Part shown: positions 18,673 through 27,616 of the stretch, piece after piece | How the letters are laid out: each line of letters opens with the position of its first letter | How positions within the stretch are numbered: position 1 is the first letter of the stretch | Assembly (NCBI GenBank): GCA_022827625.1 | Contig: JAJEIE010000025.1 | Coordinates: 1-64,000 of the forward strand | DNA: 64,000 nt | Direction: 5' to 3' | Source: Candidatus Poribacteria bacterium | GTDB lineage: Bacteria > Poribacteria > WGA-4E > WGA-3G | Notes under the pieces: generated by a model | The model's input: only the letters and a program-made list of their open reading frames with translations | What the model was told of the DNA's origin: nothing | The model's database searches: none | Translations under genes and position numbers: made by a program

Positions 18673-18701
18673 TTGCAAAAAGTAGCACAACGTGATATAA
18701 T
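18673..18701 (+). promoter_or_regulatory. Predicted sigma70-type promoter of the cobalamin riboswitch operon
   Basis: TTGCAA, a 17-base spacer and a perfect TATAAT end 27 bases before the riboswitch begins. No competing promoter is visible between this and the first gene. Confidence 0.8.
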
Positions 18702-18728
18702 ATAAATATCACAATTGAATAAGCTGAC

Positions 18729-18894
18729 GATTTAGGTGCCGGAGAGAGCCGGAGAATAGGGAAGCGCGGTGAGAATCCGCCACGGCCCCGCCACTGTGAA
18801 CGATTGCAAATATCCGCTGAAAAAACCACTGTCAACTCACTGATGGGAAGGTGCAGCGGACTCAAGATCGGAAGTCAGGAGACCTGCCTGAATC
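18729..18894 (+). ncRNA. Cobalamin (B12) riboswitch aptamer
   Basis: The conserved blocks of the cobalamin riboswitch occur in order. AGGTGCC is at 18734-18740. GGGAAGCGCGGTGAGAATCC follows from 18759, then GGCCCCGCCACTGTGA from 18784. The B12-box region GGAAGTCAGGAGACCTGCC starts at 18870. The outer helix can form between GATTTAGGT and ACCTGCCTGAATC. A terminator at 19038-19107 precedes the first gene, so B12 binding is expected to shut the operon off. The family assignment rests on consensus recognition by eye. Confidence 0.93.
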
Positions 18895-19037
18895 GTGTTT
18901 CACACATCTGCTTTCGCGGGAAAGCGGTGGAACAGCGCGCAGCAATATCCTGTTAGATTTAAAACAGAAATACCGAATAAGGTATAGAATTCTCACACAA
19001 AACTACAGGACCAGACTTACACAGTATGTCGCCGCAT

Positions 19038-19107
19038 CCTCTGCTTTTCGGAGCCACTTGCAAGCCAAGACTTGCTATAAAAGGCTATGAAGGCAGGGGT
19101 TTTTTTG
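19038..19107 (+). terminator. Terminator in the riboswitch expression platform
   Basis: CCTCTGC pairs with GCAGGGG over seven positions, with an inner AGCC/GGCT helix, and a run of seven T follows directly. The ribosome site of the first gene comes only ten bases later. This matches an intrinsic terminator controlled by the upstream B12 aptamer. Confidence 0.7.
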
Positions 19108-19126
19108 TCTCATTACGGAGGTTTTG

Positions 19127-20470
19127 ATGGACAAAGTTTTTTTGACGCGGCGGCATTTCTCGTGCCATTTTCACAACCTACCCTCGCTTCTACTTATAGG
19201 TGCGATACTCTTCACACTCCTCGTTAGTCCTGCTTTTGGGCAAACAGAAGTCCAAGAACTGGCAGTTGTCATAAACGCCTTGACACACCCCGACTTAGGC
19301 ATCACTGCTTCACTCTCACTCATCGATCTGATGGAACCGAATGAGAACCGGGCTGTCGATAATGAGATACTCCTTTTCAGCACTGAGGTGCTTAATCGGA
19401 GGCGGGCCGTCGGTCTTTCCATTCACGGGCATCTTGCTTATATTCCCACCTTTAATTTACCCATTACGGGTGCTGCAAGCTTCGGGGACAGCATCTTTAT
19501 TGTCAATTTGGAAGACCGAGAGATTGTTGGCGAAATCCCGATTCAAGACGGTACGACACCGCAGCAAATCGCTCTTATCAACGAACAGAAGCTGTACGTT
19601 ACGTGTGCAGCAACGCATGAGGTACATGTCGTTGACATCCCGAATCGCAATGTGACAAAGGTCCTCACCGGTTCTTTCAACAAACCGACCGGCATTACGC
19701 TCCTCAACGGTAAAGCCTACGTCTCGAATCCAGCATGGGAGTGGAATCCAGCTGAAAGCAGAACCATCTATTACGATAGCAGCGTCACAGTAATTGATAC
19801 AGAAACAGATCTGATATTGAAATCCATACCAGTGCCGACAAATGCAAGCGCAATCGTCAACGATGGTGCATCTACTGTCATTCTCAAAACAATAGGAAAT
19901 TACAATGACATCCCAGGGCATCTCATTCTGATTGATACAGCGACAGATGAAATTGTTGAAACGGTTAAACTCGACTTCGCGCCCGGTGCCTCTGCCCTCA
20001 ATCCACAAAAACAGTTGTTTCTCCAAGGGAGTTGGCAAAACCCGGGCTTGCTCATCTACGATGTTGCAGCGCAAACGTGGATTCGGGATGAAGATGACGT
20101 GATCGCCAACTTCAGCAATGATGCAGATGCCTCTATCAGTGGTGGTTTGACCTTTGCGCCGGACGGAAGTCTTTATATCATCCAGCCCGACTGGTCAGGG
20201 AGCGGACAGGATTTCGTCCGCGTCATGGACCCTATGGATGCATCTCTCCTGCAAACCTATCACGTTGGACCCGGGGGTTCTATTCTCGGATTCGCACAGA
20301 TCGTCCCGCGTCGCGAAGACATCAACAACGATGGGTTTGTTAACGCGGAAGACTTAACAATCGCCAGTCGGTTCTTGGGAGACGAGGGACCCGGTATAGT
20401 CGCCGATGTCAATGGAGACCAAGTTGTTAACGTCCTTGATTTAGTGCTGATAGGATTTTTTAACGATTAA
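19127..20470 (+). CDS. Secreted YVTN-type beta-propeller with C-terminal dockerin-like domain (BtuG-like candidate)
   Basis: The 447-residue exported protein has a basic N-terminus and a hydrophobic segment ending SPAFGQ (about 34-39), a signal peptide. The body consists of repeated blade-like units (DSIFIVNLEDREIVGEIPI, EVHVVDIPNRNVTKVL, SVTVIDTETDLILKSIPV, LILIDTATDEIVETVKL) as in YVTN/YncE beta-propellers. The last 50 residues hold two Ca-loop segments, DINNDGFVNAEDL and DVNGDQVVNVLDL, which form a dockerin-like pair. A strong ACGGAGG site precedes the ATG. Expression follows a B12 riboswitch, and the known Bacteroides BtuG proteins are B12-binding propellers, so surface capture of cobalamin is my proposal; direct binding is not shown by sequence. 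Confidence 0.8.
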   Translation: MDKVFLTRRHFSCHFHNLPSLLLIGAILFTLLVSPAFGQTEVQELAVVINALTHPDLGITASLSLIDLMEPNENRAVDNEILLFSTEVLNRRRAVGLSIHGHLAYIPTFNLPITGAASFGDSIFIVNLEDREIVGEIPIQDGTTPQQIALINEQKLYVTCAATHEVHVVDIPNRNVTKVLTGSFNKPTGITLLNGKAYVSNPAWEWNPAESRTIYYDSSVTVIDTETDLILKSIPVPTNASAIVNDGASTVILKTIGNYNDIPGHLILIDTATDEIVETVKLDFAPGASALNPQKQLFLQGSWQNPGLLIYDVAAQTWIRDEDDVIANFSNDADASISGGLTFAPDGSLYIIQPDWSGSGQDFVRVMDPMDASLLQTYHVGPGGSILGFAQIVPRREDINNDGFVNAEDLTIASRFLGDEGPGIVADVNGDQVVNVLDLVLIGFFND

Positions 20471-20477
20471 ATCTGGG

Positions 20478-20502
20478 CACCGTTCCACTTCGTTTCACGG
20501 TG
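20478..20502. repeat. Hairpin with CACTTCG loop (D)
   Basis: CACCGT pairs with ACGGTG around TCCACTTCGTTTC, eight bases after the propeller gene. With its flank to about 20530 it is a near-identical inverted copy of 11502-11553. Transcription must pass it to reach the next gene. Confidence 0.65.
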
Positions 20503-20607
20503 ATTTTCGGTCAATTCTAACCGTCTTTGGGTTACGAAAAACTTTTTAACCATCTAAAAACCGCAAGAGGTAACAGAGTGCAGTACTCAGATTTAATAGA
20601 AAGAAAC

Positions 20608-22542
20608 ATGATAGAGAAAAAAAGACCAAAAATCTGGTATCTGTTCCTTGTTTTCTTGCTTAGTTGCGCTTCAACCCCGAAAGAAGAACCGTTCACATGG
20701 AAAGTAACGTTCTTTTCATTGGGTGCAAAGGCGCAATTGCGTGCAGAAGCACCGCTCCAACGCCTGAATGCCTTTAACGCCGATGGTGTGATGGTTGCGC
20801 AGCTCAATTTTCCTACCCCACCCCGCCAAACAGAGCCACTCTATTTTGAATGGCGTGAGGGGGAAACCTATAGGTTTGAAGCAACCTTAACAACGGGCGA
20901 TGTGGATGTTCAAACGGTAACTGCGCCGTGGACATACACACAAGGCAGCTTAGAAATCGCCATCCCTTATGGTGTTGGGATGCAACTGGCGTCAGGGGAG
21001 GATATAGCAAACAACAACCAGGTCGCCCTTGTTTTACATGACAGCGAAACGACAGCCACTGTCCTCGTTAGAAATGGGAAGATACCAGCGAATTTTGACC
21101 TCGAACTTTGTCTCCCATCAACACTAACTGTTGTACGTTTGCCAATAGGTTGGCAGACTGAAATGACCGACGCAGGCACCTGTCTCTCGACCACTGGTAG
21201 ATTTCGCGTCGCATCGGAGGTCTGGTACCGTGAACTGGTGCTGAAGACCTCCCCAGCGACTAACGCAGAGAAGCAAGAAATATCGGGAGTTGTCCGTTTC
21301 ACAACAGATACAGGACAGACGTGGGAACAACAGACAACAGTCGAGTTGCGAGCGGCGACCGTTCCAGAGATTACCCAACACCTCTCGATAGCATCGATCA
21401 AAATGCCTACAGACGCAACAGGTACAGTAGACTCGAAGCAGCGGGAGGATACCATCTACTACTCGCGTCCACTGCTCAGTTGGCTTGACACCGCGCAGAC
21501 GAATCCATTTGAGCCGACAACCTATCAGACAATCCGACTCCACAATCAGAGTGAAGAGACTATCCATGTGGCTGTGTCATCAATCAATAGAGATGTAAAG
21601 ACCGGCGAAGTTGTCTCTTTCCTCGCACCACCAGAGACAGCGAATGGTGGTACGAATCAGAGCGTCGCCTTCGCGAGCCTGCCCGGAGGCGAAATTACAG
21701 AAATTCCCTTACCCATTTATTTTCATCTGACCTATCTAAAGGAGGGTAAGGTAGAGCAGGCGATTCCGGGAGAATACACGCGCGATATTGCGGTGAAGGT
21801 CTGGGGCAGCGACGCAACGATACTGCGTGAAGAACGTCCACTTCACCTGATTGTTCCAAACCAACAGGCACTGCTTGTCAGTCTTTTGGCAATCATCAGT
21901 AGTACCATCGGATTGGCGGTCGTTCTAAAGTTGCACAAACAACTGTTCGCCGGTTTCACCACGAAACAACTCATCGTTATTGCCTTATTTGGCACGACGG
22001 TTTTTGTGGCAGTGACGGTCCCCTCAACGTTATTCCTTAACTTAATTCGCGCACTTCTCGGACCGATTTCTGTTCTACTAACTGGCTTGATAAATGAGAC
22101 GCTCTACTATGCTTTGCTGACTGCATTGCTAATTTACATTAGTGGGGACCCTGAAAATTCGGAGCGGGGTGACCGAAATCGACAGAGTAAGGGAAGTGGT
22201 GTCATCTTGCTTGTCTCCGCAGTCCGCTTACTGCTCGGTGGTGTAACGTTCGGACTTTTTACACCAATGGCGATCGTCTACACCGGCACAAGCGTCCTCC
22301 TACTGGAAACAGGCTTTCTATTTGTCCGAAGACGGAGCCTGTTCGTATGGGCAGTTGTGTTAGGTCTCTGCGACGCGATTGCTGTCTACGTCGATTTTCA
22401 ACTCTCTATACTGCTCTATCGACTTTTTTATGCCAATTGGTATATCGTTCTCCGAATTCTGATAGAAGGGTTCGCCTACACGTTTATCGGCGTACTTCTC
22501 GGTGCGAGGTTAGGACACGGACTTTGGCGCGTGGCGGATTAA
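20608..22542 (+). CDS. Lipoprotein with C-terminal ECF S-component-like membrane domain
   Basis: The 644-residue protein appears to be a new combination. A lipoprotein signal (WYLFLVFLLSCAS, Cys near 20) is followed by about 390 residues of beta-rich exported sequence. From about 421 there are six to seven hydrophobic helices. The last 180 residues contain GPISVLLTGLINETLYYALLTAL, a helix with LLLGGVTFGLFTPMAIVYTG and the ending EGFAYTFIGVLLGARLGHG. Their spacing and small-residue pattern resemble substrate-binding S-components of ECF vitamin transporters. Cobalamin or cobalt is the likely cargo because of the B12 riboswitch upstream. The ATG at 20608 is chosen because it begins the lipoprotein signal; its ribosome site is weak. 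No ECF ATPase or T-protein is in the window. The S-component assignment is inference. Confidence 0.7.
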   Translation: MIEKKRPKIWYLFLVFLLSCASTPKEEPFTWKVTFFSLGAKAQLRAEAPLQRLNAFNADGVMVAQLNFPTPPRQTEPLYFEWREGETYRFEATLTTGDVDVQTVTAPWTYTQGSLEIAIPYGVGMQLASGEDIANNNQVALVLHDSETTATVLVRNGKIPANFDLELCLPSTLTVVRLPIGWQTEMTDAGTCLSTTGRFRVASEVWYRELVLKTSPATNAEKQEISGVVRFTTDTGQTWEQQTTVELRAATVPEITQHLSIASIKMPTDATGTVDSKQREDTIYYSRPLLSWLDTAQTNPFEPTTYQTIRLHNQSEETIHVAVSSINRDVKTGEVVSFLAPPETANGGTNQSVAFASLPGGEITEIPLPIYFHLTYLKEGKVEQAIPGEYTRDIAVKVWGSDATILREERPLHLIVPNQQALLVSLLAIISSTIGLAVVLKLHKQLFAGFTTKQLIVIALFGTTVFVAVTVPSTLFLNLIRALLGPISVLLTGLINETLYYALLTALLIYISGDPENSERGDRNRQSKGSGVILLVSAVRLLLGGVTFGLFTPMAIVYTGTSVLLLETGFLFVRRRSLFVWAVVLGLCDAIAVYVDFQLSILLYRLFYANWYIVLRILIEGFAYTFIGVLLGARLGHGLWRVAD

Positions 22543-22579
22543 GACATTATACCAAATCACAACACAAGGAAATACAACT

Positions 22580-24268
22580 ATGAAACGAATTCAATTTTTG
22601 AGTCTATTCGGTCTATTTATGATCTTATCCATTGGTATTGTGGCAGCCGATATGGATGTCACTTGGGTCCGAACAGGCGTAGTGCTTGAAACACAACAGA
22701 AAAACGGCATTGAAGGTGAGATTAATGTCGCGACGATGTCTAACGGCACAACACGCGCTTTAGCCGAAGCATCTACAATTCAGAGGCTTGACGCGAACCG
22801 TGCTTTTCTCCAGTTCACATGGCAACCGAACGAAAATTACCAATTTCGCTTGAACGATACCGAAATAACAACAACTTCACCCGTCAAGCCTGAACCTTAT
22901 CTGATTCGGACTGTTGAATTAGATGGACGCTTGTCATTGATGGAAAACCTCCGTCAACCCGCAAAGCCGACAGCGATCGCCTTAGGGTCGGGAAACACAC
23001 CTAACACAGAGAAATTAGCCGTTGCCACGGATAGCGGACATCTCGCGATGCTCCAACCACTCACGGGTGAAATACTTTGGAAGACCCGTATCTCGGAAGG
23101 CTACGTGCGGGGAGTGGCGTTTAGTCCTGACAACGCCCTACTCTACGTCGGGGAACAGGCATCAGACGGATTCATCTACTGCTACGATCTAACAACCGAC
23201 ACGCCGACGCTGCGCTGGAAATACCGTACAGCCGACGACATCGAGACTTCCACGCCGAGTGATCCGGGAAGTGTCTACGCATGGGTCAGCTACCCCGGTC
23301 AGTCTTGTATGCAAACACTGGCGAACGGCGATCTTTTGGTTGCCGGTGTACATTCGTGGACAGAAAACGATACACCCCGTAAGAAGTCCCAACTCTATAG
23401 GTTCGATAGTAAAACGGGAAACGTTACTTGGAAATGGCCCCACGATCGCGCCGTATCGAAGATCATACGCTGGTTTGACACAAGTGCCGATGGAGAAACA
23501 CTCGCACTCGTCACAGATGCCGGACACAATTTACAAGGGAACACGGCGGATGGAAACGGCAGACTCGTCGTCCTCAACGCGAAAGACGGAACAGAAAAGT
23601 GGCACGCCGATATTGAACCCTTGACCCCATATTTCTCACAGGTCACGTTTTGGCGTGGCGTTAGCGTGTCGCCTGACGGTCAATTTATCAACGTAACAAC
23701 AGACGACGGACGCGCCTTCATCTTTGATGTGAACAAACCCGAACCGATATGGCAGGAAAATCTGACGACCCCATTAGAGGTAAGCGGGATTCCTATCGTA
23801 GCAACCTCTGGCACAATTGATGCGACGGACGCAGCGGCACTTTTTGTTACTGGTGACACATATATTCCTTACCATCTCCGAAAAGGAGCGCAACGCCCGT
23901 CGGGAGCACATCCAAATGCGGTGACCCTGTTCGCTTATGCGTGGACGGGTGAAAAAATCTGGCAATGGCAGCTTGAGAATATGCCGCAAGGTTTGCGTAT
24001 TGATGCACAAGATCGTTATGCGCTGCTATCCATTTCCAAACGCACACAGGATCCGAATGAGAGCCTCCACGGTGTGTCGGTGTTTGACCTGACAGCCGAA
24101 AGCAGTGGCTTATCAAAATATCTGTACACCTACCGCACAGAGGGGCAGCTGCCTTATGATACGCTTGCGATTAGCGCAGATGGCGCGCGCATCGTTGTTG
24201 TTGAGATTCCGATTACGCTGCCGGATGAGACGGCGCGCGGGAAGAATCGGGTGCATGTGTTGTATTGA
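22580..24268 (+). CDS. Secreted PQQ-like beta-propeller protein
   Basis: The 562-residue exported protein has a signal peptide MKRIQFLSLFGLFMILSIGIVAAD-like at 1-23. It then has WD40/PQQ-type blades: GHLAMLQPLTGEILWKTRI (about 153-171), FIYCYDLTTDTPTLRWKY (about 200), LYRFDSKTGNVTWKWPH (about 270), RLVVLNAKDGTEKWHADI (about 330) and ALFAYAWTGEKIWQWQL (about 450). No catalytic residues of quinoprotein dehydrogenases are recognised, so a binding or scaffold role is likelier. It is third in the B12-riboswitch operon, 37 bases after the lipoprotein gene, and ACAAGGA lies before the ATG. Its exact job is unknown. Confidence 0.8.
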   Translation: MKRIQFLSLFGLFMILSIGIVAADMDVTWVRTGVVLETQQKNGIEGEINVATMSNGTTRALAEASTIQRLDANRAFLQFTWQPNENYQFRLNDTEITTTSPVKPEPYLIRTVELDGRLSLMENLRQPAKPTAIALGSGNTPNTEKLAVATDSGHLAMLQPLTGEILWKTRISEGYVRGVAFSPDNALLYVGEQASDGFIYCYDLTTDTPTLRWKYRTADDIETSTPSDPGSVYAWVSYPGQSCMQTLANGDLLVAGVHSWTENDTPRKKSQLYRFDSKTGNVTWKWPHDRAVSKIIRWFDTSADGETLALVTDAGHNLQGNTADGNGRLVVLNAKDGTEKWHADIEPLTPYFSQVTFWRGVSVSPDGQFINVTTDDGRAFIFDVNKPEPIWQENLTTPLEVSGIPIVATSGTIDATDAAALFVTGDTYIPYHLRKGAQRPSGAHPNAVTLFAYAWTGEKIWQWQLENMPQGLRIDAQDRYALLSISKRTQDPNESLHGVSVFDLTAESSGLSKYLYTYRTEGQLPYDTLAISADGARIVVVEIPITLPDETARGKNRVHVLY

Positions 24269-24698: not shown

Positions 24699-24938
24699 TT
24701 ACGCTATCGGCGGTTTGTTATTCCGCTCAAACAGGGCATTCAATGCCTCGCTCAGCAAACTTTGAATACTCGTGTCTTTCTCAAGTGCGAGCATCTTCAA
24801 CTGTCGATGCACATCCTTGTCAAAATGACCAGAAATCATCTTTTTCCCTTGACGGGATGGCGGTACCGCTGCCGTCGGTTTCGGTGTACGCTGAACGGCA
24901 ACGCCGCCTTCGTTTGATAAAATTGCTACTGTTTTCAT
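24699..24938 (-). CDS. Small ribbon-helix-helix-like DNA-binding protein
   Basis: The 79-residue protein has a short N-terminal strand MKTVAILSNEGGVAVQ and a linker rich in Pro and Ala. Its C-terminal part, ISGHFDKDVHRQLKMLALEKDTSIQSLLSEALNALFER, matches the ribbon-helix-helix pattern of ParG-like and antitoxin-like proteins. The ATG at 24938 has GGAGG ten bases upstream; longer starts up to 25037 read through the repeated operator-like sites and are less likely. The N-terminal 12 residues resemble the start of ParA ATPases without the P-loop lysine. Autoregulation through the 24957-24995 repeats is my inference. Confidence 0.65.
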   Translation of the reverse strand: MKTVAILSNEGGVAVQRTPKPTAAVPPSRQGKKMISGHFDKDVHRQLKMLALEKDTSIQSLLSEALNALFERNNKPPIA

Positions 24939-24956
24939 ATCATCTATGCCTCCGTG

Positions 24957-24995
24957 CATGTACACATGTATATATGCAAACATGTACACATGTAT
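24957..24995. promoter_or_regulatory. Two 15-bp direct repeats, possible operator of the RHH gene
   Basis: CATGTACACATGTAT occurs twice, at 24957-24971 and 24981-24995, with a period of 24 bases. Each copy contains ACATGT palindromes. The repeats lie just upstream of the RHH gene at 24699-24938, where an autorepressor would bind. Confidence 0.55.
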
Positions 24996-25126
24996 GAGAA
25001 TATAAAACGTTAGATTCTCAGAATGGGTTTCAGACAAAGTCCCAAAAATTGAAGAAAAAAGTTAAAACACGACCTGTCTCCAAAAAGTAGGTATGGTTTC
25101 GCGGACGTACCCGTCCCAACGACACC

Positions 25127-25384: not shown

Positions 25385-27616
25385 ATGACAAAATGGACAC
25401 TGTGTGTAGCGATATTTCTCTGTTTAGGAATCATTGTTCACAATACCAGTGCAAAAGAACTAACATTAGATGAGATTTTTCCAACCGATCGCATTATAGA
25501 CGTACAGATTACACTCCCGCAGCAGGATTGGGATACAATCCGTTACCAGTCGCGGGATATCAGAACAGCACTCAGTGCCTCGCGGCAATTCCAGCCGATG
25601 GAGAGTCCCTATACTTATGTTGAAGCGAGCGTCAGCATTGATGGCGTGGTTTTCCCGAAGGTCGGGCTGCGAAAAAAAGGATTTATCGGCTCACTAAGCA
25701 ACACCCGTCCGTCCCTGAAAATCAGACTAAATCACATTGACAAAGACGGTGGGATTGAGGGACTCACAAACCTCACTCTGAACAACAACAAACAAGACAC
25801 AGGTTTAGTCAGCCAATTTATGGGATATGCCCTATTTAACGCAATTGGCTCACCCGCACCCCGATGCGCGTATGCGAAGGTGACAGTAAACGGCAAAAGC
25901 CTCGGCATCTACTCACACGTGGAGACGGTTCGGAAACCGTTGTTGGAACGCGCCTTCGGGAACAGCGATGGTCCCCTCTACGAAGGGACGGTCGTGGATT
26001 TTTATGAAGGCTGGGAAAACAGTTTTGAACACAAGCGTGGTGACGACACACGCGGTCGGGCGCACATCAACGCCATCATTGACCTTTTGGCAGACCCAAA
26101 AACAACAGAAGCCGACATCGGTAAGTTGGTAGATTTGGACTCGTTTTATAGGTTCTGGGTGACTGAGGGTTTAGTCGGATTCTGGGATGGTTACTCGGGG
26201 AACAAAAACAACTTTTTTGCCTATCTGAACCCTGAAGACAATAAATTTTACTTCATTCCGTGGGGTATGGACTCCATCTTTACCAAGCACAGTAAACTTG
26301 AATTCATGAACGACGCGCGGGCACCCATATCCGTCAAAACACAAGGATTGATTGCCTACAAGTTGTATCAATCCGAGTCTGGACGGCAGCGATATAGAGA
26401 AGTGCTTACCGAGATTTTAGACAAACACTGGAATACGGCGGAATTGTTAGCAATGTTAGAAACAATCGCTGTAAGGGTCGAACCACATTTGGTGCCTGCG
26501 CAGCGTGTGATTGAAGAAGAATGGGATAGAGGGGGCAGGTGGGGGCAAGTAACCAAGCCGACTTTTGAAAGCGAGTTGGAAGCAGCTCGCACCTTTATCC
26601 GCAATCGCAAAAATGATATACAGAGAGAAATTGCTGATGGGATGCCAGTATGGAGCAAACGACCCGACCCGCCGTTCGCTATTCCAGAAGATGGCGACTT
26701 CATGGAGCAGTTTATAGAATTCACAGAAAAGACCATAGTAGGTGCTGCGCGCACGGGAGACATCGCAGCTATCAAACAGCATATAGCGGAAGGTGCCAAT
26801 GTTAATGAGATGCGTTTTGAGATGCCGCCTTTGGCATGGGCAGCGATGATGGGACACACAGCTGCTGCTGAACTGCTGCTCCAACATCGGGCGGATATCA
26901 ACGGCAGAAATGGAGACGGTAATACGGCTTTGCATCTCGCTGTGTTTTTAGGACACGCTGAAACTGCCGGACTGCTTATAAACAACGGTGCTGATGTGAA
27001 CACAAAAAATGGCGACGGCGCGGCACCTATAGACCTTCTGGGCGTTCCGTGGGAAATGACGCGGTTTATGACGGACATGTTCGGCATTAAGCTGGAACAG
27101 GAACAAGTCGAAACGGGGAGAGCTAAAATCGCTGAGATGCTCAACGTCAAATTAGCCTCGGAATCACAGGTAGGAACAAACGATATATGGGCGGCAGCAT
27201 TCACGGGTAACACCGAGGCACTTAAACAGGCTTTAGCAGATGGTGCCGATGTCAACGCCAGAAACTCGCAATCTGGAGCAACACTGTTGATTACGGCAGC
27301 AGTCGCGGGACACACAAAAGCAGTCGCGACACTTCTTGAGCACGGTGCAGACATTAATGCAAGAGGTCAAGACGGTGGAACGGCACTACACGCAGCGGCT
27401 TTTTTCGGGCATACTGAAACGGCAAAGTTCCTTTTAGAAAAGGGTGCGGATACAAACATCCGAAGCAATGATGGGGCGACCCCTTTGGATACAACGAAAG
27501 TTGACTGGGAATTGACGCAATTTGTGGCTGGAATGCTACAGATGAAAGTGAACGAGGCAGAAGTCAAAGCAGGCAGAGCCGAGGTTATGAAATTGCTTGC
27601 AGGAGAAAAAAGATAA
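25385..27616 (+). CDS. Secreted CotH-like protein fused to ankyrin repeats
   Basis: The 743-residue protein has a signal peptide (about 1-24, ending NTSAK). A CotH-type protein-kinase-like domain spans about 40-430. It includes GLTNLTLNNNKQDTGLVSQ, the DGYSGNKNNFFAYLNPEDNKFYFIPWGMDSIF block (about 270-300) and an LGIYSHVETVRK region. The C-terminal third has two groups of ankyrin repeats (about 455-560 and 600-720, for example GNTALHLAVFLGHAETAGLLINNGADVN). CotH proteins phosphorylate spore-coat or surface proteins in Bacillus. Here the ankyrins could present partners outside the cell, as inference. A strong CAGGAG site supports the ATG. Confidence 0.85.
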   Translation: MTKWTLCVAIFLCLGIIVHNTSAKELTLDEIFPTDRIIDVQITLPQQDWDTIRYQSRDIRTALSASRQFQPMESPYTYVEASVSIDGVVFPKVGLRKKGFIGSLSNTRPSLKIRLNHIDKDGGIEGLTNLTLNNNKQDTGLVSQFMGYALFNAIGSPAPRCAYAKVTVNGKSLGIYSHVETVRKPLLERAFGNSDGPLYEGTVVDFYEGWENSFEHKRGDDTRGRAHINAIIDLLADPKTTEADIGKLVDLDSFYRFWVTEGLVGFWDGYSGNKNNFFAYLNPEDNKFYFIPWGMDSIFTKHSKLEFMNDARAPISVKTQGLIAYKLYQSESGRQRYREVLTEILDKHWNTAELLAMLETIAVRVEPHLVPAQRVIEEEWDRGGRWGQVTKPTFESELEAARTFIRNRKNDIQREIADGMPVWSKRPDPPFAIPEDGDFMEQFIEFTEKTIVGAARTGDIAAIKQHIAEGANVNEMRFEMPPLAWAAMMGHTAAAELLLQHRADINGRNGDGNTALHLAVFLGHAETAGLLINNGADVNTKNGDGAAPIDLLGVPWEMTRFMTDMFGIKLEQEQVETGRAKIAEMLNVKLASESQVGTNDIWAAAFTGNTEALKQALADGADVNARNSQSGATLLITAAVAGHTKAVATLLEHGADINARGQDGGTALHAAAFFGHTETAKFLLEKGADTNIRSNDGATPLDTTKVDWELTQFVAGMLQMKVNEAEVKAGRAEVMKLLAGEKR

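Follow-up and report, generated by a model that had tools for sequence, protein, structure and literature searches.

Known B12 and ECF transport systems and the locus

BtuG1-3 are surface lipoproteins of Bacteroides that have been reported to be exclusive to Bacteroidetes and linked to BtuB (PMC6143338, PMC10404256), and ECF-CbrT of Lactobacillus is a cobalamin (vitamin B12) transporter of the energy-coupling factor (ECF) type in a Gram-positive bacterium (PMC5997447). Two further systems are relevant here: BtuB-BtuFCD, which brings B12 from the surface to the cytoplasm, and YkoEDC, an ECF transporter of hydroxymethylpyrimidine (HMP)/thiamine with the S-component YkoE (PDB 5EDL). Here we analyse an operon of three genes, g1, g2 and g3, that follows a B12 riboswitch in a 64,000-nt stretch of DNA (the window) from a genome of Candidatus Poribacteria (5.02 Mb, 95% complete; contig C21 of 41). 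Sequence comparisons lead us to propose that this operon is probably a corrinoid (vitamin B12) uptake system, made of a BtuG-like catcher and an ECF S-component fused to a lipoprotein.

The locus resembles each of these systems in part. The g1 product is nearest to BtuG by both profile and fold, has the Pfam family DUF5074 in common with it, is exported and has its gene behind a B12 riboswitch; it differs from BtuG in being no lipoprotein, in carrying a dockerin (and in one relative, G004, also a FlgD-like sorting tail) and in having no btuB alongside, as the g1-g3 operon contains none. The six-helix membrane domain of g2 is homologous to YkoE over its full length, and the candidate motor has two fused ATPases (EcfAA), as does YkoD. 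Unlike YkoE, however, the g2 S-component sits behind a lipoprotein anchor, a periplasmic domain and an extra helix, its polar core residues are altered, and it is placed under a B12 riboswitch with the motor genes elsewhere. With ECF-CbrT, g2 shares the proposed role, that of an S-component importing B12 with a motor encoded elsewhere. CbrT, from a Gram-positive bacterium, is an S-component with nothing fused to it, and the profile of the g2 C-terminus found no solved S-component at E <= 10, in a type of search in which such families can miss each other. The proposed function is that of BtuB-BtuFCD, but the host genome holds no BtuC, and none of its 10 TonB receptors reaches the BtuB cut-offs; a canonical BtuBCDF system is disfavoured. 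Each part belongs to a known family or is closely related to one, and their combination appears to be new. A literature search of open papers found no description of this combination or of an S-component fused to a lipoprotein, and no report of ECF transporters in Poribacteria or of BtuG outside Bacteroidetes.

The features of the locus are as follows (positions in the window):

18673–18701 (+): sigma-70-like promoter hexamers TTGCAA-17-TATAAT; weak, 10 of 12 matches
18717–18905 (+): cobalamin riboswitch aptamer; RF00174, 113.4 bits, E = 1.2e-27
19038–19106 (+): riboswitch intrinsic terminator (stem 19038–19099, U-run 19100–19106); RNA fold, equivalent hairpin in relatives
19127–20470 (+): g1, predicted secreted BtuG-like beta-propeller with C-terminal dockerin; profile, Foldseek, VIA-align
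20315–20449 (+): type I dockerin domain of g1; PF00404, 33.6 bits (cut-off 22.9)
20608–22542 (+): g2, predicted lipoprotein that ends in a YkoE-like ECF S-component; lipobox Cys, hhalign, single copy in 70 of 73 genomes
20665–20667 (+): lipid-anchor Cys codon of g2; invariant in 17 of 17 homologues
20668–21861 (+): putative periplasmic beta-rich domain(s) of g2, of no known family; strands from a low-confidence model alone
21862–21948 (+): putative extra transmembrane helix of g2, taking the chain to the cytoplasmic side; helix 418–446 of the low-confidence model, hydrophobic
21952–22524 (+): YkoE-like S-component of g2, six predicted helices; hhalign and helix pattern
22580–24268 (+): g3, predicted secreted PQQ/BamB-like beta-propeller; PF13360 (PQQ_2), 61.7 bits

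A conserved operon behind a B12 riboswitch

The original prediction had placed a promoter, a B12 riboswitch and a terminator before three adjacent exported genes. A covariance-model search recovered the riboswitch over the full length of RF00174, far above the cut-off of 31.5 bits, and this match in the leader of g1 is the only one in the entire genome. The terminator is also upheld: in the RNA fold a stem followed by U7 lies between the aptamer and g1, and of 29 leaders from relatives, 24 contain an equivalent hairpin (CCCCTG...GCAGGGG, then six or more U) after the riboswitch and before g1. Because this hairpin and its U-run recur across the leaders of several families, transcription termination would be the natural reading of the mode of control. 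The promoter hexamers, on the other hand, are statistically unremarkable (6 sites in the region, 7.1 expected by chance). Of the three products, g1 has a signal peptide and g2 a lipobox, and g3 is a predicted secreted propeller.

To appreciate how well this arrangement is kept, we compared 73 genomes from the order of the host, and 12 additional genomes from other orders of the phylum. B12 riboswitches are present in 71 of the 73, one in each except for two in G004, and g2 is present as one copy in 70. In 66 of these 70 genomes g2 starts 163–2125 bp 3' of the riboswitch on the same strand. The remaining four comprise one in which the distance is 5.9 kb (G010) and three (G003, G008 and G065) in which g2 and the riboswitch are located on different contigs. 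One g2-bearing genome, G057, has no RF00174 match; the record that corresponds to its g2 (L031) opens inside g1, which suggests that the contig begins too late to include the riboswitch. Among the 30 best loci, 29 have g1 after the riboswitch, with identity down to ~36% in other families, and g3 was found downstream of g2 in the sampled g2-bearing loci from other genera and families. None of the 12 genomes from the other orders contained g2. The trio with its riboswitch is not a chance arrangement, since g2 sits close behind the riboswitch in nearly all genomes and most of the exceptions are contig breaks or ends; the predicted conservation of the trio in relatives is thereby borne out.

In G004 the operon is split in two. 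In one half (L042:7945–10040) a riboswitch of 105 bits precedes g1, and in the other (L043:8026–12475) a second of 103 bits lies 121 bp upstream of the g2 frame, with g3 next. This split is a natural experiment in which B12 control appears to have been retained for both halves, and not for the first gene alone. In G003, where g1 was not found, a HEARO RNA (134 bits, L041:1606–1845) lies 150 bp 3' of the B12 riboswitch.

A YkoE-like S-component at the end of a lipoprotein

For g2 we prefer the start at ATG 20608, while the open reading frame list begins at TTG 20527. From this start the protein has a lipobox (LLSC) with the invariant Cys, a long hydrophilic region of ~400 residues, one hydrophobic helix and a C-terminal domain of six predicted helices. 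Profile searches gave no PDB or Pfam match for the ~400-residue periplasmic region. The C-terminal domain was compared, as an alignment of the last 230 residues of 16 sequences, with a YkoE alignment consisting of 5EDL and five plasmid-borne YkoE sequences; the seed sequence for the YkoE family was admitted after it matched 5EDL at E = 7e-73. The two profiles align by hhalign with P = 6.8e-7 over 166 columns, nearly all of YkoE, and P is 8.1e-8 when the distant members alone are used. Controls gave 0.045 for another S-component family, 0.62 for EcfT, 0.23 for the reversed profile and 0.018 for the best column shuffle, and block shuffles that retain 20-column pieces of the true family reached down to 1.9e-5. 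With the two profiles swapped P was 4.5e-5. The signal requires both family profiles, because the lone 5EDL sequence gives just 0.1. By this comparison the last ~190 residues of g2 are homologous to the six-helix ECF S-component YkoE along the whole domain. The extra helix that precedes them would lead the periplasmic chain across the membrane to the cytoplasmic side, the proper one for the first helix of an S-component.

Less directed searches returned little. With the consensus of the g2 C-terminus, neither an informative Pfam family nor any NCBIfam family was hit. The g2 profile found nothing in the PDB, and the C-terminal profile found no PDB chain at E <= 10, solved S-components included, although such families can miss each other by sequence. 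Indeed, S-components of the PF12822 type fail to match not only g2 but also YkoE itself, and a general sequence search for S-components is therefore blind here.

The two propellers

The g1 protein consists of a signal peptide, a propeller and a dockerin. When an 18-member g1 profile was run against the PDB, BtuG1, BtuG2 and BtuG3 (entry identities from PMC10404256) were matched over their full span with values between 6e-16 and 3e-9, against 0.0019 for E. coli YncE; the archaeal YVTN propeller 1l0q had a higher total (5e-21), assembled from three separate overlapping pieces. The predicted g1 model is of moderate quality (predicted local distance difference test score, pLDDT, 61.5; mostly 70–94 in the propeller core). 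A Foldseek search of 350,542 PDB chains with this model placed BtuG at all of ranks 1–10, and VIA-align also put BtuG1 on top (Z 27.4), with YncE at 23 and unrelated WD40 propellers only 2–3 Z below the top. DUF5074, the Pfam family of BtuG1, is the best propeller family for g1, which nevertheless stays under its cut-off. By profile and model, the g1 propeller is of the BtuG type in both sequence and fold, and it may bind corrinoids very tightly, as BtuG does.

The signal peptide of g1 has no lipobox Cys, so that the lipid-anchor trait of BtuG is missing, and a dockerin stands in its place. Most homologues carry this C-terminal dockerin, which in G004 is followed by the FlgD-like sorting tail. 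Immediately 3' of the dockerin-bearing g1 of G006 lies a gene whose product has a cohesin domain and a sorting tail (L044:8232–9743), and this adjacency suggests that g1 is displayed on the cell surface by dockerin-cohesin pairing.

The PQQ/BamB-like propeller g3 is the most conserved of the trio, with 45–54% identity to the other families of the order vs 29–41% for g1. In B. thetaiotaomicron, B12 transport locus 1 (bt1486-1491) encodes a quinoprotein-like propeller, BT1487 (PDB 4r5o), which may, by analogy, recall the position of g3 beside a BtuG-like gene.

The candidate ECF motor and the predicted need for B12

EcfT, matching PF02361 CbiQ, is found in 69 of the 73 genomes and EcfAA, a fused double ATPase that meets the ECF_ATPase models, in 68; the host genome holds both, away from the g1-g3 operon. 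BioY was found in none of the 73 genomes and ECF_trnsprt passed its cut-off in none, and no adjoining S-component-like gene was seen at ten inspected EcfT/EcfAA loci. The sole EcfAA of the host genome (C21, ~171.2–172.8 kb) starts 8 bp 3' of a gene for a DUF4070 B12-binding radical SAM protein (the two together at L112:7210–10762, or ~169.2–172.8 kb of C21), and a homologue of this gene is also upstream of EcfAA in G011, G017 and G004, which belong to three other genera. Since the radical SAM gene adjoins EcfAA and the S-component searches were negative, the motor is linked genomically to a B12 enzyme and has no other evident S-component.

The host genome encodes MetH (1955 bits), an MtbC-like corrinoid protein and a CarH-like regulator. 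CbiC, which is required in corrin-ring synthesis, is missing from every one of the 73 genomes. Its absence speaks against de novo synthesis in the order, with the qualification that CbiC is one marker and not a survey of the pathway.

A proposed route of B12 uptake and its rivals

We propose the following route. When B12 is scarce the aptamer would be empty, the terminator would not form and g1-g3 would be transcribed. On the surface, g1 would capture B12, held there in the host genus by its dockerin; the lipid-anchored periplasmic half of g2 would then take over the B12 and hand it to its own C-terminal S-component. By docking on the EcfAA-EcfT motor, this S-component would bring B12 into the cytoplasm. 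As for g3, it probably aids the capture or the periplasmic hand-over, and this is the weakest step. A bolder version, which we put forward tentatively and with some doubt, is that B12 import here dispenses with both BtuB and BtuCDF despite the presence of TonB-type receptors, with a BtuG-like catcher displayed by dockerin or sorting tail that feeds the first self-loading S-component, equipped with its own lipid-anchored receptor domain and a dedicated ECF motor.

Several observations weigh against B12 uptake by this route. PF09819 is not reached over its cut-off (best g2 member 18.6 of 25.2 bits, E = 0.0022). The AlphaFold model of full-length g2, built with 9 close homologues, is poor (pLDDT 34), and for this reason the S-component assignment is drawn from sequence profiles and the helix pattern alone was used from the model. 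BtuG of Bacteroides operates with BtuB, of which no counterpart was recognised in the host genome. Two genomes, G006 and G012, have the riboswitch and g1 but g2 was not found in them, and full-strength FecCD-type permeases, potential B12 carriers, occur in 28 of the 73 genomes. Finally, the nearest relative of the g2 domain, YkoE, has thiamine/HMP as its known ligand, and 5EDL is named an HMP/thiamine permease.

It is from this last point that one could argue for g2 as an importer of thiamine, HMP or another vitamin, placed behind a B12 riboswitch as a form of cross-regulation. This seems quite improbable to us: the riboswitch is the only one of its kind in the genome and g2 keeps one of its own in the split G004 operon, its partner g1 is BtuG-like, and EcfAA adjoins a B12 enzyme. 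Moreover, among the polar positions invariant in YkoE, g2 retains Glu97 but has an invariant Arg at Glu74, a Ser in the host at Gln92 and a gap at Glu67, so that its ligand is probably not thiamine. The FecCD permeases, together with the fact that we infer the pairing of g2 with EcfAA and EcfT, would instead favour a surface or periplasmic complex that scavenges or processes corrinoids, with g2 a mere anchor and import left to another transporter. We regard this as unlikely, as the ECF motor would then have no recognisable S-component and the host genome has no BtuC-type permease (two weak FecCD matches of 29.2 and 21.2 bits, vs ~300 for true members).

Cobalt ECF transporters are frequently under B12 riboswitches, EcfT matches the CbiQ family and Pfam calls the YkoE family ABC_cobalt; import of cobalt for B12 synthesis by the operon is nevertheless very improbable, given the absence of CbiC from the order and a BtuG-type propeller that is foreign to known cobalt systems. 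As a whole, the original prediction of B12 uptake is supported by the riboswitch and the conservation of the trio with it. The propellers foreseen for the first and third products were found, the former comparable to BtuG, and the S-component-like end of the second was confirmed and refined to the YkoE type.

Downstream of the trio, a small open reading frame (24699–25037, reverse strand), by eye resembling a ribbon-helix-helix regulator, lies before a gene at 25385–27616 for what appears, again by eye, to be a CotH-kinase-like protein with C-terminal ankyrin repeats.

The operon would unite BtuG-type capture with ECF-type B12 transport, and would add to these a lipid-anchored domain built into the S-component itself. 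A near-universal gene set of an uncultured, sponge-associated order of Poribacteria thereby gains a proposed function, and the B12 uptake reading predicts that this order depends on imported corrinoids.

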